Shown: one piece after another, positions 1,989 to 21,728 of the stretch | Numbering within the stretch: the first letter of the stretch is position 1 | How the letters are laid out: each line of letters begins with the position of its first letter | Source of the DNA: a virus | Reading direction: 5' to 3' (one strand) | Virus record (IMG/VR): IMGVR_UViG_3300027816_000424 | Coordinates: 1-23,128 of that record | Length of the DNA stretch: 23,128 bases | The notes under the pieces: generated by a model | Database searches by the model: none | Told to the model about the DNA's origin: nothing | Seen by the model: the letters and a program-made list of their open reading frames with translations, nothing else | Translations under genes and position numbers: made by a program

Positions 1989-2027
1989 TATTTATATACA
2001 AGTATTTACAACCCAAGGAGTTATTTT

Positions 2028-2771
2028 ATGTCAAATGTTTCATTCCCTACCGAAGTAATCGATTTACCAAGTAAGGGTAAGTTTTATCCAGAAGGTAGTC
2101 CACTCAGTAGTGGTCAAATAGAATTAAAATATATGACTGCAAAAGAAGAGGATATTTTAACTTCACAAAACCTCATTCAAAAGGGTGTTGTATTAGATAA
2201 GTTAATCGATAGTCTTATTGTTACAAAAGGTGTACACGGTGAAGATTTACTTTTGGGTGATATTAACGCGGTAATGGTAGCAAGTCGTATTATGGGATAT
2301 GGAAAAGATTATCCAGTTACAGCAACATGTCCATCATGTTCAAATAGAGAAGAGTTGGATATAGACTTATCACAATTAGAAACAAAAGAAGTATCGGAAC
2401 GTAATTTGTCAGTAACATTACCAGCTAGTAAGAAAACTATTAAAGTAAGATTACTTACCCGTAAGATTGAAAAAGAAATTCAAAAAGAATTGGACGCTAT
2501 GAAAAAAATAAAGTCCAATATAGATCCAGAAGTATCAACCAGACTACGTTATATTATTGCCGAAGTGGATGGGGCATCTGACCAAAAAACTATTCGTGAA
2601 ACGGTAGAAAACATGTTGGTTGCAGATACACGAGCACTTCGTGAATTCTACAAGTCGGTGACACCAGACGTAAAGTTTGAAGTATCACATACTTGCGAAA
2701 GTTGTAATCACGAAAGTACACTACCAATCACAATCGGCACGGACTTTTTTTGGCCTGACGCAAGAATATAG
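2028..2771 (+). CDS. 26: T4 gp26-like baseplate/tail assembly protein (T4_baseplate family)
   Basis: A 247-residue protein that opens with TEVIDLPSKGKFYPEGSPL and continues KYMTAKEEDIL, the signature start of the T4 gp26 family (Pfam T4_baseplate). T4 gp26 takes part in assembly of the baseplate hub. Two Cys pairs, CPSC (101-104) and CESC (223-226), could form a zinc-binding site. A good ribosome binding site, AAGGAG at 2015-2020, precedes the ATG. The protein ends FFWPDARI, and the FF pair is encoded within seven consecutive T (2745-2751). The following small frame lies +1 relative to this gene and is open across that run, so a longer frameshifted product is possible (see findings). The gene sits directly before the tape measure, as expected for a tail assembly factor. 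Confidence 0.85.
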   Translation: MSNVSFPTEVIDLPSKGKFYPEGSPLSSGQIELKYMTAKEEDILTSQNLIQKGVVLDKLIDSLIVTKGVHGEDLLLGDINAVMVASRIMGYGKDYPVTATCPSCSNREELDIDLSQLETKEVSERNLSVTLPASKKTIKVRLLTRKIEKEIQKELDAMKKIKSNIDPEVSTRLRYIIAEVDGASDQKTIRETVENMLVADTRALREFYKSVTPDVKFEVSHTCESCNHESTLPITIGTDFFWPDARI

Positions 2772-2952
2772 GTTGAACATGCACAAGGTCATCTTTTCTA
2801 TGGTGTATCATGGAAAAGGTGGATTTACCTTTCAAGATTTATATAATATGCCAGTGTTCTTGCGCGGCTTCTATTTGAAGGAAATGAATGACGCAGTAGA
2901 AAAAGCAAATGAAGAAATAGAAAAGGCTACGAAACGATCACCTCGTAAATGA
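2752..2952 (+). CDS. Small downstream frame: separate protein or frameshift extension of the gp26-like gene
   Basis: If translated alone, the best start is the ATG at 2779, giving 57 residues beginning MHKVIFSMVYHG and including GGFTFQDLYNMPVFLRGFY, then a charged Lys/Glu-rich tail. No clear Shine-Dalgarno sequence precedes that ATG. The frame is open upstream through the end of the gp26-like gene and across its seven-T run, and the residues between the run and the ATG (GLTQEYRLN) read naturally with what follows. It may therefore be the C-terminal part of a gp26-like fusion of about 307-308 residues made by +1 or -2 frameshifting. Its place between a tail assembly protein and the tape measure is where many phages encode chaperone extensions. 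By T4 gene order a gp51-like role is also possible, but the sequence does not show it. Coordinates begin at the first codon after the run. Confidence 0.65.
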   Translation, partial: GLTQEYRLNMHKVIFSMVYHGKGGFTFQDLYNMPVFLRGFYLKEMNDAVEKANEEIEKATKRSPRK

Positions 2953-2960
2953 GATAATAG

Positions 2961-5498
2961 ATGGCTGTAGATCCTAATATGGAAAAAGCAAGTCTAGCAG
3001 CGGATGGACTTACTTCTGAATTAAATAATGTGGCTAGCGAAGCAAAAAAGTTTGCTACCACTATGAATGCCATAAACGAAAAAATAAAAAAGACTGCAAA
3101 TTTAACACAGGAAGAACTTGAAGCTGCTGGTAATGATATAGGTAGAATGCGAAGAGATGCAGCAACACTTGGTCAAGCTTTTAAACGAGGAACGGTTCTT
3201 CTCAATGGTTTATTTGATGGTATAAAAGTTACTGACCAAACTGCAATAGCATTATTTAATAAAAATGCAATAAGAGTTGGTTCTAATTTTAATACATTCG
3301 CTGCAAGATTACAAAGTATGCAAAATACTTTGGCAAATACTACTAATGAATTTAATAACGTTAGAAAGGGAATGGGTACTGTAGGGACGGCATTCCTTTA
3401 TACTAGAACTGCGTTGTTTAGTGTAGGACAAGCATTTACACAATTACGGACAGCAGTTTTTGGATTACAAAAACAAGTAGGTACAACATTTGGGTCCGCT
3501 TTAAATGTTGGTGTAGGTGCATTTACTAACCAAATTACTTCATTTTTTTCTGGTGGTCCACCACTAACCTTTCAAGAAAGTGTTGATGCGATAAATGCAT
3601 TTCAAAGAGAATTTGGTGGTATATTAACAAGAGGTGAAGCTCAAAAGATAGCACAAGCTTCCAAAGCATTAGGTATAAGTTCCGCTACTTTCTTACAAGC
3701 ACAACGTTCATTTTTAGTAGTTGGTGGGGAAGCAACCAAAAATACATTTATTGGGCAATTTAGAGCAGCAGGTTTAACGGCAGCAAACGCACTAGAATTC
3801 GCAGCAAAAAATGCAAATTTAGTTGCAATAGCTGGTACCAAGTATGCAGCAGCTCTAGCACAGGCAGCAGCAAACGCACAACGTATTGGTGTTGGATTGG
3901 ATAGAACCGAAGCATTAGCTGACGGTATAGTTGGTAATTTTGAAGGAGCACTAGAACGGTTCTCTGAACTTCGAGCAATGGGTGTTGAAGTTGATTTTAA
4001 TAGACTAGCTGCTGTTGCTGGAACAGGTACACCACAAGAAGTATTATCTGAATTACAAAGTCAACTTGGTGGAAACCAACAGTTATTAGCAGAATTACAA
4101 CGTAATCGTTTCTTAAAAGTTGCACTGGAACAAGATTTAGGTCTTAATGTTGCAGAAATCACAAGATTGGCTGCTGGTGGTGGTGCTGTGGCAACAGAGC
4201 AAACGCAAGAAGAAAAAGATAGAACTACACGAGATAAAATATTAGAACGTGTAGGAACCGTTGCAAACTTTTTAGCAGCACTGATTGCAGTAATACCAGC
4301 TCAAACAGTAGCTACTGCACTTAATACGAAAGCTTTATTGGCTAAAAAAGTCTTGGGGGTAGCTGAAAAACCACAAATAGCAGCAACTACAGCACCAACA
4401 TCATTACCTAGACAACAAGAACGATTAGCATTACCAGCACCTAAATCAGACAGAACTTTTTATCAAGGTGGACAAACACCACCAATACCAGGAAGACCTG
4501 GTATACCTGCCGGTAGAGTACCACCTGCGACGACATCTGGTGTACGTGGATTATTACCAGCATCAACAACAGCAGTGGCTGGACAGACACAACAACAATT
4601 ACAAAATCAACTTAGTGTTAGACTGGCGGAAACAACTAGAATTGCCGCCAATTTACAATCACAAGGATTGAGTACAGCCGCCGCAGCGCAAAAAGCATTA
4701 GCAATACAAGCAAGTCAACCAGGTACAGTTGCATTAGCAGCTAGCATGAGACAATCGAACCCAGATATGCCAGCATCACAAGCGTTGGCACTTGCTCGGG
4801 GACAATCTGCAATACCAACGCAACAAATAGCGACTACATCAACACAAATGACACGAGCAGTTGCAGCACCAACAGTAGCGGCTGGAGGTGGAATGTTTGG
4901 TAATGCTATGGCAGGTGCCGGCGGTGGAGCAGCGGTTACAGGAGCTGGTGTACTTGGAGGTGCTGTTGCAGGTATAAGTGAATTCCAACAAACAAAAAGT
5001 ATTAAACGAGCAATCGCAGCAACACTGATTGGAATAGTCACATCGGTATTGGCAACACTATTAATTGGAATGATACCAGGTGCACAATTGGTAGCTCCAA
5101 TAGTTGGTGGTATGATAGGTAGTGCAGTTACTCCGATGTTAACAAGTTTCTTTATGGGTTCTGCAAAGGCGGCCGGTGGATTAATTACAGGTCCAGGTAC
5201 CGCAACAAGTGATAATATATTGACACCAACATCACCAGGTGAATACGTGGTGAATGCAAAGGCAACTAAGGCATACGGTGCCGATATGTTGGATAATATT
5301 AACAAAGGAACATTCACACCAACACAAACACCATCGGTTAACAATGTGGTTAATGTCAATATGGATAAGATGGAAGCTAAATTAGACAAGTTAGCAGCGG
5401 CATTCTCAAATATGAAGATTGATATGGACGGAAATACAGTTGGACGGGTTTCATTAAACGCACGGTCACCACTTGACCGTCTAGCTGTGGTGGGTTAA
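2961..5498 (+). CDS. Tail tape measure protein
   Basis: An 845-residue protein with the usual features of a tape measure, which sets tail length and lies inside the tail tube (T4 gp29 plays this role). The N-terminal half is a long Ala/Gln/Asn-rich, mostly helical region with few aromatic residues. There are hydrophobic stretches at about 435-460 and 684-725 (including LIGIVTSVLATLLIGMIPG), suited to membrane interaction on ejection. Residues about 738-767 contain GGLITGPGTATSDNILTPTSPGEYVVNA, a segment I recognise from the C-terminal part of many tape measures. Residues about 470-600 are Pro/Gln/Thr-rich. If it spans the tube as an extended helix at 1.5 angstrom per residue, the tail would be up to about 127 nm; that is an inference. 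It follows the gp26-like block and precedes the tube-initiator-like gene, matching T4 order 26-51-27-28-29-48-54 in part. Confidence 0.85.
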   Translation: MAVDPNMEKASLAADGLTSELNNVASEAKKFATTMNAINEKIKKTANLTQEELEAAGNDIGRMRRDAATLGQAFKRGTVLLNGLFDGIKVTDQTAIALFNKNAIRVGSNFNTFAARLQSMQNTLANTTNEFNNVRKGMGTVGTAFLYTRTALFSVGQAFTQLRTAVFGLQKQVGTTFGSALNVGVGAFTNQITSFFSGGPPLTFQESVDAINAFQREFGGILTRGEAQKIAQASKALGISSATFLQAQRSFLVVGGEATKNTFIGQFRAAGLTAANALEFAAKNANLVAIAGTKYAAALAQAAANAQRIGVGLDRTEALADGIVGNFEGALERFSELRAMGVEVDFNRLAAVAGTGTPQEVLSELQSQLGGNQQLLAELQRNRFLKVALEQDLGLNVAEITRLAAGGGAVATEQTQEEKDRTTRDKILERVGTVANFLAALIAVIPAQTVATALNTKALLAKKVLGVAEKPQIAATTAPTSLPRQQERLALPAPKSDRTFYQGGQTPPIPGRPGIPAGRVPPATTSGVRGLLPASTTAVAGQTQQQLQNQLSVRLAETTRIAANLQSQGLSTAAAAQKALAIQASQPGTVALAASMRQSNPDMPASQALALARGQSAIPTQQIATTSTQMTRAVAAPTVAAGGGMFGNAMAGAGGGAAVTGAGVLGGAVAGISEFQQTKSIKRAIAATLIGIVTSVLATLLIGMIPGAQLVAPIVGGMIGSAVTPMLTSFFMGSAKAAGGLITGPGTATSDNILTPTSPGEYVVNAKATKAYGADMLDNINKGTFTPTQTPSVNNVVNVNMDKMEAKLDKLAAAFSNMKIDMDGNTVGRVSLNARSPLDRLAVVG

Positions 5499-18816: not shown

Positions 18817-20667
18817 ATGCAGATTGAAGCAAAGATTTTAAGTGATATTACCGTATTTATGAAGTACGCAAAGTTTAATCCTACATTAAATCGTAGAGAA
18901 AATTGGAAAGAGTTAGTTGATAGAAATAAACAAATGCATTTGGAAAAATATCCAAACCTAAAAGAAGAAATAGAGGCAGCATACAAATATGTATATGATA
19001 AGAAGATACTTCCTTCCATGCGCAGTTTGCAGTTTGCTGGGAAACCTATTGCCATTAACAACGCTCGTTTGTATAATTGCTGTTTTCTACCTATTGACCA
19101 CGTGGACGCGTTCTCAGAAATCATGTTCCTCTTGTTGTCAGGCACAGGGGTCGGATACTCCGTACAAAGGCATCATGTAGAAAACTTACCTGAGATTAAC
19201 AAGCCAACAAAGAATCGTCGTTATCTTGTTGGTGATAGTATCGAAGGTTGGGCAGATGCGGTGAAGGTATTGATGACCGCATATATGAAGGGTAAGGCAA
19301 TGCCAATTTATGATTTCACCGATGTTCGTCCAAAGGGTGCAATGCTCTTGACCTCTGGTGGAAAGGCACCTGGTCCTGAACCATTAAAGGATTGCTTACA
19401 TAATGTGCAAAAGGTATTGGACAGAAAGCAAAATGGTGAACACCTCACTACACTTGAAGTCCACGACATTCTTTGCTATATCGCTGATGCCGTGTTGGCA
19501 GGTGGTATTCGTCGGTCAGCAATGATTTCGTTGTTTGATATTGATGACGACGATATGTTGACCTGTAAGTTCGGTAACTGGTGGGAACAAAATGCACAAC
19601 GTGGTCGTGCAAACAATTCAGCAGTCATTGTTCGTTCAAAGGTTGAAGCAGAAACATTCTTTGAATTATGGAAGAAAATTGAAGCATCGGGTTCTGGTGA
19701 ACCTGGTTTCTTCTTTACCAATGATAAGGATTGGGGTATGAACCCTTGTGCAGAAATTAGTCTCCGTCCGTTCCAATTCTGTAATCTCACCACCATTCAT
19801 GCGGGTGATGTTGTAGACCAAGACGATTTGAACGCACGTGCTAAGGCAGCAGCATTTATCGGCACACTACAAGCAAGTTATACAGATTTTCATTATTTGA
19901 GAGACATATGGAAAAGAACAACAGAGAAGGAAGCACTCATCGGAGTGTCGATGACTGGAATAGCATCGGGTGGAGTGTTAAAGCTCAACATGAAAGAGGC
20001 TGCAAATTTGGTGAAGGAAGAGAATGCACGTGTATCGTCTATAATTGGTACGATGCCAGCGGCCCGTTGCACGACCGTGAAGCCAGAGGGCACGTCATCT
20101 CTCGTTTTGGGTACGAGTAGTGGTATTCATGCTTGGCATAACAAGCACTACATTCGTCGTATCCGTGTAGGTAAGAATGAAAGTATCTACGCATACTTGA
20201 AGAACAATCATCCAGAACTCGTCACTGACGAATACTTCAAGCCAAATATTCAAGCAGTTATTGAAGTTCCACAAAAGGCACCAGATGGAGCAATCACTCG
20301 TCAAGAAAGTGCATTAGACCTCCTCGGTCGCACCAGTAAGGTATGGAAGGAATGGGTCAAGACAGGTCACAGAAAGGGTGCAAATAAGAATAATGTATCC
20401 GTCACCGTATCTATCAAGGATGGTGAATGGCAAGAAGTTGGTGAATGGATGTGGGAAAATCGTGAGAACTTTACCGCACTTTCAGTTCTTCCATACTCAG
20501 ACCACACATACATTCAAGCACCATTTGAAGATGTTGACGAAGAAACCTATAACGAATTGGTTGGTCATTTACACGAAATCAATCTTGATGATGTCGTAGA
20601 AGTTGAAGATGTCACCAATTTACAAGGTGAAGCAGCATGCTCGGCTGGTGGATGTGAGGTTCAATAA
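18817..20667 (+). CDS. nrdJ: Class II (adenosylcobalamin-dependent) ribonucleotide reductase, monomeric type
   Basis: A 616-residue enzyme that converts ribonucleotides to deoxyribonucleotides using a radical from coenzyme B12. The active-site loop NPCAEI (309-314) contains the thiyl cysteine Cys311 and Glu313. Cys322 and Cys88 or Cys89 (LYNCCFLP) are placed like the redox pair of Lactobacillus leichmannii reductase, and a C-terminal CX4C pair (Cys608, Cys613 in ACSAGGCEVQ) would pass electrons from thioredoxin. PEGTSS at 423-428 fits the phosphate-binding loop. The protein is shorter than the 739-residue L. leichmannii enzyme. No NrdB-like radical subunit or activase gene is nearby, supporting class II. 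The ribosome binding site is TTGGAG at 18805-18810. The TAA overlaps the thioredoxin ATG, so enzyme and reductant are translationally coupled. Confidence 0.88.
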   Translation: MQIEAKILSDITVFMKYAKFNPTLNRRENWKELVDRNKQMHLEKYPNLKEEIEAAYKYVYDKKILPSMRSLQFAGKPIAINNARLYNCCFLPIDHVDAFSEIMFLLLSGTGVGYSVQRHHVENLPEINKPTKNRRYLVGDSIEGWADAVKVLMTAYMKGKAMPIYDFTDVRPKGAMLLTSGGKAPGPEPLKDCLHNVQKVLDRKQNGEHLTTLEVHDILCYIADAVLAGGIRRSAMISLFDIDDDDMLTCKFGNWWEQNAQRGRANNSAVIVRSKVEAETFFELWKKIEASGSGEPGFFFTNDKDWGMNPCAEISLRPFQFCNLTTIHAGDVVDQDDLNARAKAAAFIGTLQASYTDFHYLRDIWKRTTEKEALIGVSMTGIASGGVLKLNMKEAANLVKEENARVSSIIGTMPAARCTTVKPEGTSSLVLGTSSGIHAWHNKHYIRRIRVGKNESIYAYLKNNHPELVTDEYFKPNIQAVIEVPQKAPDGAITRQESALDLLGRTSKVWKEWVKTGHRKGANKNNVSVTVSIKDGEWQEVGEWMWENRENFTALSVLPYSDHTYIQAPFEDVDEETYNELVGHLHEINLDDVVEVEDVTNLQGEAACSAGGCEVQ

Positions 20668-20984
20668 TGCTGAACAAGATTGACACGATTGAACAGTTAA
20701 AAGAAGTGGTTCATCACAACGATATTGCAGTGGTGGACCTATACGCAACGTGGTGCAAACCATGCCAAGAAATGCTTCCAGTCATTGAAGAACTTTCTAA
20801 TCAAACACCAGTTCCTTTTTACAAGGTAGATATTGATGAAGTTCCAGATGCAAAGACATTTACTGGAGCAAAGGCTGTTCCAATGTTATACATCTACAAA
20901 GACGGACGAATTCGTGAATTTGCATTTGGTGTAAACGATAAGTCTAAGATTGAAATGAAACTTAAAAGGGTTATGAGGGCATAA
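20667..20984 (+). CDS. Thioredoxin
   Basis: A 105-residue thioredoxin with active site WCKPC (29-33, Cys30 and Cys33) and the cis-proline in AVPML (Pro72). The usual beta-alpha-beta pattern is visible: VVDLYATWC, FYKVDID, MLYIYKDG. The Lys between the cysteines replaces the Gly of classical WCGPC and may shift redox potential. Its start overlaps the reductase stop by one base (TAATG) and its own stop overlaps the dUTPase start in the same way. The coupling strongly suggests it reduces the C-terminal CX4C pair of the phage ribonucleotide reductase. No signal peptide is present, so it acts in the cytoplasm. Confidence 0.92.
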   Translation: MLNKIDTIEQLKEVVHHNDIAVVDLYATWCKPCQEMLPVIEELSNQTPVPFYKVDIDEVPDAKTFTGAKAVPMLYIYKDGRIREFAFGVNDKSKIEMKLKRVMRA

Positions 20985-21403
20985 TGAAGGTTAAGAAATT
21001 ATTTGATAATGCGACATTACCAACCAAAGCACACGCTGGTGATTTAGGATACGATTTATATGCTCAGGCGCAGATGGTTATCTATCCTGGAGATGTAGGA
21101 TTAGTCCCTACAGGTATTTCCGTACAATTCCCAGAAGGTTACGGAGCATTACTTCGTGACCGTTCTTCGGTGGCTACAAAACAATACTTATTTGTAGTGG
21201 CTGGTGTAATTGACAATGGTTATACTGGTGAAATTAAAATAGCTTTATATAATGGTGGTCGGGATGTCGCCAAGATTCAAGAAGGTACAAAAATTGCACA
21301 AATGATTTTGGTTCCAACGGTCAATTTTGAAATAGAAGAAGTTTCAGAAACCACATCAGTAGATGGAAGGGGGAGCAATGGATTCGGTTCAACAGGCAAC
21401 TGA
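20984..21403 (+). CDS. dut: dUTP diphosphatase (dUTPase)
   Basis: A 139-residue trimeric-type dUTPase that hydrolyses dUTP to dUMP, keeping uracil out of phage DNA and feeding dTMP synthesis. All five family motifs are present: AGDLGYDLY (18-26), RDRSSVATK (58-66), GVIDNGYTGEI (74-84), EGTKIAQMIL (100-109) and the Gly-rich end GRGSNGFGSTG (128-138). Asp77 in motif III is the expected catalytic residue and Tyr80 the base-stacking one. The start is fused to the thioredoxin stop (TAATG). The Fe-S carrier gene starts inside its 3' end. Confidence 0.93.
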   Translation: MKVKKLFDNATLPTKAHAGDLGYDLYAQAQMVIYPGDVGLVPTGISVQFPEGYGALLRDRSSVATKQYLFVVAGVIDNGYTGEIKIALYNGGRDVAKIQEGTKIAQMILVPTVNFEIEEVSETTSVDGRGSNGFGSTGN

Positions 21404-21728
21404 TTTTAATATTACCTTTACCAAAGCAGCACTTGGGGAAATGAAGAAGTTTGCAGAAGTAGAAAATGCAAACTACTTCCGTATCTCAGTATTACCAGGT
21501 GGATGTTCTGGTTTTAAGTATGATTTTAACTTAGTCGATAATCCAGAAGAAGATGATATTGTGATTGAACAAGAAAATGGATTGAAGGTCATTGTAGATC
21601 CTTTCTCAACATCATATCTCAATGGAACATTGGTGCATTATGTAATGTCAATGCAAGCTTCTGGATTTACATTTAATAATCCAAACTCAACAGCAAAGTG
21701 TGGATGCGGAAGTAGTTTCGCAGCATAA
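21378..21728 (+). CDS. A-type iron-sulfur carrier (IscA/ErpA/HesB family)
   Basis: A 116-residue A-type carrier, a family that receives Fe-S clusters or iron and hands them to client proteins. The three conserved cysteines are present: Cys43 in GGCSGFKY and Cys108 and Cys110 in the C-terminal CGCGSSF. The ATG at 21378 is chosen because a strong ribosome binding site, GGGGGAG (21369-21375 region), precedes it; an in-frame ATG at 21363 has no such site and would lengthen the overlap with dut. It overlaps dut by 26 bases. The next gene is an iron-dependent oxygenase. The client in the infected cell is unknown: no Fe-S enzyme is recognised in the window. Confidence 0.9.
   Translation: MDSVQQATDFNITFTKAALGEMKKFAEVENANYFRISVLPGGCSGFKYDFNLVDNPEEDDIVIEQENGLKVIVDPFSTSYLNGTLVHYVMSMQASGFTFNNPNSTAKCGCGSSFAA

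Follow-up and report, generated by a model that had tools for sequence, protein, structure and literature searches.

A probable programmed +1 ribosomal frameshift in the gp26-like tail chaperone gene of a T4-type phage family

The stretch of DNA analyzed here (the window, 23,128 nucleotides of the IMG/VR virus record IMGVR_UViG_3300027816_000424) carries a T4-type tail module, with a gp26-like gene, a small frame and a tail tape measure gene (Table 1). The gp26-like protein scores 68.6 bits against PF12322 (curated cut-off, 24.5) and matches PHROG 150 with an E-value of 2.3e-22; it is the product of the only PHROG 150 gene in the window. A preliminary description of this DNA had placed the gene pair just upstream of the tape measure. 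Indeed, a gene assigned to that function by its PHROG match follows directly, and a Pfam search of its product returned no tape measure match. The gene order tube, gp26-like, tape measure is also found in phages immuto, SP-15 and LIS04; that of RM378, as annotated, differs. A 148-kb contig (G001), which may not be an independent sample, matches the window at 100% identity through the first 6768 nt and holds one PF12322 gene, a count that may reflect an incomplete contig. Elsewhere in the window, at 20667–21728, lie three overlapping or abutting small genes that by eye resemble thioredoxin, dUTPase and a HesB/IscA-type iron-sulfur protein.

Table 1 Features of the gp26-like locus in the window
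Feature	Position	Strand	Basis or detail
Shine-Dalgarno AAGGAG of the gp26-like gene	2015..2020	+	sequence
gp26-like gene, zero frame; predicted short chaperone form (TAC-N, 'G'), 247 aa	2028..2771	+	PF12322, PHROG 150, AlphaFold2
Small frame	2677-2952	+	+1 relative to gp26, open across T run, stop TGA 2950-2952
Putative slip site TTT TTT T	2745..2751	+	TTT TTT T in 75/80 (best 80 of at least 599 relatives)
Predicted +1-frame extension ('T' domain)	2752..2952	+	66 codons plus stop TGA; fusion would be 307 aa
Zero-frame stop TAG of the short form	2769..2771	+	sequence
ATG in the +1 frame; independent start here possible but disfavoured	2779..2781	+	48/73 complete extensions without ATG before MP motif
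Tail tape measure gene, directly downstream	2961..5498	+	PHROG 25241 tail length tape measure, E 2.9e-13

The gp26-like gene ends GAC TTT TTT TGG CCT GAC GCA AGA ATA TAG. The sequence and the phases of the open reading frames bear out the preliminary description in that the seven T are read as GAC TTT TTT TGG and in that the small frame lies in +1, is open across the run and stops at 2950. They also bear it out in that the ATG at 2779 lacks an evident ribosome binding site, AGG being the sole such word upstream of it, as compared with the AAGGAG that precedes the gp26-like gene. Measured from the first base of the stop, the −1 frame is open merely over the 10 nt before and the 5 nt after (in L001, which is identical here). 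On this strand of the window there are two seven-T runs and a single occurrence of TTTTTTTGG; because a seven-T run by itself is not rare in the window, the significance of this one rests on its conservation. Nor is UGG rare, at 66 of 7284 codons in the window.

The AlphaFold2 model of the gp26-like protein has a mean pLDDT of 90. A Foldseek search of the PDB with this model gave no match at E ≤ 0.001 (best, 1.7), the HK97 chaperone 2ob9 (E 2.0) and YqbN 3klu (E 4.8) both being weak matches. Comparison with 353 chains by VIA-align put the same two first, 2ob9, the HK97 tail assembly chaperone, with Z 5.3 over 79 residues at 3.5 Å and YqbN with Z 4.9 over 85 residues at 4.1 Å, the remaining rows scoring 2.5 or less; the two best rows are thus chaperones, at a Z of about 5 that may reflect a common arrangement. 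Both proteins are termed tail assembly chaperones in the excerpted text of PMC9603447, although YqbN appears as uncharacterized in the table of that paper. Among named BFVD matches the SP-15 baseplate hub subunit ranks first, followed by T4-like hub assembly proteins. A fold search with a model of a T4-type gp51 listed no chaperone among its rows (best Z 4.8, C1QBP).

To assess conservation we used the best 80 of at least 599 IMG/VR relatives, at 45 to 100% identity, a sample that is not fully blind to the slip site because one of the six search peptides spans it, and 39 cluster representatives obtained by single linkage at 70% gp26 identity. Among these best 80 the site reads TTT TTT TGG in 62 and TTT TTT TAC in 13, with TTC TTT TGG (2), TTC TTC TGG (2) and CTT TTT TGG (1) making up the minor forms; pairing after a +1 shift is kept in three relatives beyond the 75 with TTT TTT T, and in the +1 isolates described below. 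Although TTT makes up 77% of upstream Phe codons in the relatives' gp26-like genes (544/702), TTT TTT is present in every member of 34 of the 39 clusters, and so many are expected by chance with P = 2e-4. Of the 80, 78 keep the +1 frame open through the site; 5 of these 78 extensions are cut by a contig end and 73 are complete. The exceptions are L009 and L073, the two in which the T run is lost. In both (L009:2511-2760 and L073:3450-3700) TTC TTC TGG is followed by an extension in −1, without a classical −1 slip heptamer.

Across the cluster representatives the +1 frame is free of stops from three codons before to seven codons after the slip; stops in this frame do occur upstream, in 6 of the 39 at codon −4, in 10 at −6 and in 9 at −10. 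The +1-frame residues directly after the slip are conserved (G in 38 of 39, L in 38, Y in 26), and this conservation begins at the slip itself, before the gp26 stop and before any start codon, nine codons ahead of the ATG at 2779. The extensions share the motif GLxxxY(R/K)...MP(V/I)xLRxFY. Consistent with translation of the +1 frame, the Pro codon after the site is CCT in 79 of the best 80 relatives, compared with 266 of 769 upstream, where CCA is commoner; we attribute the retention of CCT to the overlapping +1 Leu codon, as expected if that frame is translated. The pattern that the preliminary description had named as counting against frameshifting, loss of the run with the ATG at 2779 and a ribosome binding site kept, is reversed in 78 of the best 80. 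An out-of-frame extension behind a conserved slip site, with no need of its own start, is a feature of G/GT cassettes and is found here.

On the strength of these comparisons we consider it highly likely that the gp26-like gene encodes a tail assembly chaperone and is subject to programmed +1 ribosomal frameshifting; they strongly support a predicted fusion of its product with the next frame, just ahead of the tape measure. We infer shifting by the ribosome at this site, its frequency and the chaperone function. The majority of ribosomes would translate the run as Phe-Phe-Trp and terminate at 2769, yielding the short form of 247 aa. A minority would slip one base forward with tRNA-Phe on the second UUU (UUU_U), so that the P-site TTT moves from 2748-2750 to 2749-2751 and the next codon is GGC at 2752-2754, yielding a long form of 307 aa that carries a C-terminal domain of 66 aa. 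By analogy with λ gpG and gpGT, the short form would coat the tape measure and the long form would recruit tail tube subunits.

The same arrangement might be read without any shift by the ribosome if RNA polymerase slipped on the T run and left six U in some of the mRNA. Retention of seven T in 75 of the best 80 relatives is in keeping with this; the layout is, however, kept in relatives in which the T run at the site is four or shorter (TTCTTTTGG, TTTCTTTGG, TTCTTTCGT and CTGTTTCGC). Because runs of four or fewer argue against polymerase slippage at these variant sites, an argument that touches the seven-T members themselves less, we regard such slippage as very unlikely. Very unlikely too, in our view, is separate expression of the small frame as a gene of its own from the ATG at 2779, for instance by ribosomes that reinitiate once they have passed the gp26 stop. 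This ATG does lie 7 nt after the stop codon and has an AGG upstream, and 76 of 79 members of a P-SSM2-like set retain an ATG 2 nt beyond the stop, so that independent starts are possible there; against it, not only does conservation in the +1 frame begin at the slip, but of the 73 complete extensions those lacking an ATG before the MP motif form the majority given in Table 1, 32 have no ATG, GTG or TTG before the core motif, and one (L047) has none of these altogether.

The preliminary description had left the direction of the shift as +1 or −2. TTTTTTT permits full re-pairing two bases back, in the manner of Mu, but variant sites separate the two: TTC TTT TGG (in L002 and L016), TTT CTT TGG (immuto), TTC TTT CGT (GXN1) and CTG TTT CGC (BRock and pSt2308) re-pair only at +1 and mismatch at −2. 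Because of these sites we favour +1 and hold a −2 shift at the same run to be highly improbable; correspondingly, of the 307–308 residues suggested earlier for the fusion, 307 stands as the +1 product and 308 belongs to the disfavoured −2 route. The possibility that faulty sequencing or assembly split a single gene, so that deletion of one T would join the frames as they are joined in one of 80 P-SSM2-like contigs (L166), can be set aside, because the 148-kb contig is identical over its 6768 nt, even if perhaps not independently so, and T7 is kept in 75 of the best 80 of at least 599 relatives, with the same phase in isolates.

Stimulatory signals around the +1 site are not general among the relatives. 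Over the 60 nt downstream the folding z averages −0.57, compared with −0.34, −0.42 and 0.01 for three other stretches, and values below −2 occur in 18% downstream of the site, compared with 8, 14 and 4%; Shine-Dalgarno-like words upstream are found in 13 of the best 80, compared with 6, 3 and 19 of 80. Hairpins in some relatives (L011, L021 and L049) may merely reflect dual coding. The A-site codon is UGG or UAC and not a stop, which counts against the +1 reading, and the excerpted sections of Atkins et al. (2016; PMC5009743) describe +1 shifting as much more efficient at CUU_U than at UUU_U. We raise, as a tentative proposal that is less probable than not, that a T4-type chaperone gene shifts +1 at UUU_U before sense codons (UGG or UAC) with no evident stimulator throughout a large clade that includes both uncultured and isolated phages, that the direction at the site has switched between +1 and −1 several times with a gene duplication taking its place in T4, and that what is selected is the short-to-long ratio rather than the mechanism. 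If true, this would imply a special property of host or phage translation, such as an under-modified tRNA-Phe or a helper protein.

Comparison of 28 phage records (13 of them taken from 30 tblastn records, the other 17, mostly near-copies, being left out) places the extension in +1 in 9 and in −1 in 16, with two genes in 3. The nine +1 records (immuto, Mel-JY01, the uncultured LR756508, GXN1, RM378, SP-15, LIS04, pSt2308 and BRock) each have a gp26-like gene, an open +1 extension and a site able to re-pair at +1, be it UUU_U, CUU_U (immuto) or UUU_C (GXN1, SP-15, BRock, pSt2308 and LR756508); LIS04 requires the first UUU. All eight annotated +1 isolate records examined leave the two frames unjoined. 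The −1 records are PA5oct, RAS14, XacN1, LR756511, P-SSM2, Syn9, HTVC008M, Cr30, ViI (whose ATT TTC is a weaker −1 site), W-14, S-PM2, Aeh1, pf16, phiM12, ACP17 and KVP40, and the two-gene records are T4, Krischvirus SFHK24 and CP220. In jumbo Pseudomonas, Stenotrophomonas and Xanthomonas phages (L092, L093 and L096), gp26-like genes end in U_UUU_UUC/U; the −1 extension that follows is open and is left unjoined to the gene in the records. Scans with the Cr30, SP-15 and RM378 proteins found two, one and one loci, three of them 100% identical to the query.

The forecast that a T4-like phage with one PF12322 gene has a frameshift held in six of six hand-picked single-gene phages, which have poly-T and a −1 domain at E 8e-33 to 1e-4. 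An HMM identifies the extension domain at E < 0.01 in these six, T4, SFHK24, CP220, W-14 and GXN1, and at 0.03 in RAS14; the HMM's own set includes, or lies close to, P-SSM2-type phages, Syn9, HTVC008M and Cr30, and in RM378, SP-15, LIS04, BRock, pSt2308, PA5oct, XacN1, LR756511 and ViI the domain is assigned by position, open frame and slip site. Of 80 P-SSM2-type IMG contigs, 79 have T TTT TTC and an open −1 frame (four cut by a contig end). A further question of the preliminary description, whether some relatives encode the two parts as one continuous protein, has a qualified answer in L166 (1501-2367 of a 236-kb contig), the only such case among the 80 and either a natural variant or an assembly error.

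In a phylogeny of 58 G domains, built on 249 columns and with several long branches (CP220 above all), gp26 and gp51 of T4 and the Krischvirus group together (98/91) next to Aeh1 and KVP40 (89/91), and L009 and L073 are nested within the +1 clade. Seven changes among the +1, −1 and two-gene states are needed on this tree, but the starred branches taken alone force fewer (two for +1, three for −1 and two for two-gene). Most simply, T4 replaced the frameshift by gene duplication.

The short form is kin to T4 gp26 and gp51, which both match PF12322 and PHROG 150; gp51, which alone matches PHROG 634, is the same domain as gp26 with a C-terminal domain added. The window extension matches PHROG 634 with E 0.028 by itself and, at residues 215-303 of the fusion, with E 0.046, which is collinear but weak. 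An HMM of the −1-frame domain, run on 208 targets, detects the C-terminus of T4 gp51 (1.2e-5), Krischvirus gp51 (1.2e-8), the CP220 long form (1.8e-8) and the window extension (L001; 0.0016), the best other T4 open reading frame scoring 0.5; just 10 of 72 window-type extensions reach E ≤ 0.01. The link to gp51 is obtained through this P-SSM2-type HMM, a direct comparison of an HMM of the window-type extension with T4 gp51 being not significant (E 0.089, two targets), and tblastn with the window extension returned five records, four of immuto and one of Mel-JY01, and no T4-type record. The extension thus appears weakly related to the C-terminus of gp51. In Aeromonas phage Aeh1 (L217), a gp51-like domain lies in the −1 frame after TTT TTC, behind a single PF12322 gene (HMM E 5.8e-10).

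Frameshifted chaperone pairs are of a known kind. As far as the literature was searched, the conserved +1 version in a T4-type family and the changes of direction seem new: among the titles and abstract openings listed from the open-access literature, none concerns a +1 shift in the T4-type chaperone family, and the excerpts of PMC10885494, PMC13072308 and PMC12977511 hold nothing on the slip site. The earlier supposition that frameshifting in gp26-family genes was undescribed does not stand for the chaperone family, because a 2022 paper had already reported the tail assembly chaperone genes of T4-like phages (Vladimirov, Gautam and Davidson, under a title that suggests a mechanism other than frameshifting; via excerpts of PMC12846349). 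Our findings point to a putative long form of the chaperone that has escaped annotation across a widespread phage family and offer a sense-codon +1 site for study, and the natural series of +1, −1, duplicated and, in one contig, possibly fused forms bears on whether the short-to-long ratio is what counts in tail assembly. In addition, the −1-frame layout offers an account of cyanophage gp51 at about 20% of its usual length and of gp51 reportedly missing in Aeh1, both as given in the excerpted text of Sullivan et al. (2010; PMC3037559).

Among known systems, the arrangement is reminiscent of λ G/GT (TAC-N/TAC-NC), in which a short protein and its frameshifted long form, with the slip near the 3′ end, are encoded directly before the tape measure, as described for λ in the excerpts of PMC5009743. 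λ shifts −1, whereas the predicted shift in the window is +1 on UUU_U, and the fold match to the HK97 chaperone is weak. Long-tailed phages broadly conserve G-T frameshifting, 'except T4', according to the same excerpts of Atkins et al. (2016; PMC5009743), the shift being −1, −2 or +1 depending on the phage. The putative slip also resembles UUU_CGN sites (influenza PA-X, in those excerpts) and the CUU_U of prfB in that a P-site UUU or CUU slips +1. Relatives have UUU_CGU (GXN1), UUU_CGC (BRock and pSt2308) and CUU_UGG (immuto), but the A site in the window is UGG, neither a stop nor CGN. A further known system is that of the poly-T −1 signals of T4-like phages, for which excerpts of PMC12846349 (2025) cite Vladimirov et al. 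(2022) as reference 76 and which presumably belong to the same gene family: U_UUU_UUC/U ends the PF12322 gene in P-SSM2, Syn9, S-PM2, HTVC008M, Cr30, W-14, KVP40, Aeh1, pf16, phiM12 and ACP17. Those sites shift −1, whereas the window clade would shift +1 and the −1 frame of the window soon closes. In T4 itself, gp26 and gp51 are listed as hub assembly chaperones in the excerpted text of Leiman et al. (2010; PMC3004832), according to which gp51 is required but absent from the final particle and reports differ on the presence of gp26 in the hub. These proteins share the G-domain family of the window protein (PF12322, PHROG 150/634), and the C-terminal domain of gp51 appears related to the frameshift extension; in T4, a Krischvirus and CP220, however, the short and long forms are two genes, whereas in the window they would come from one gene and a frameshift.
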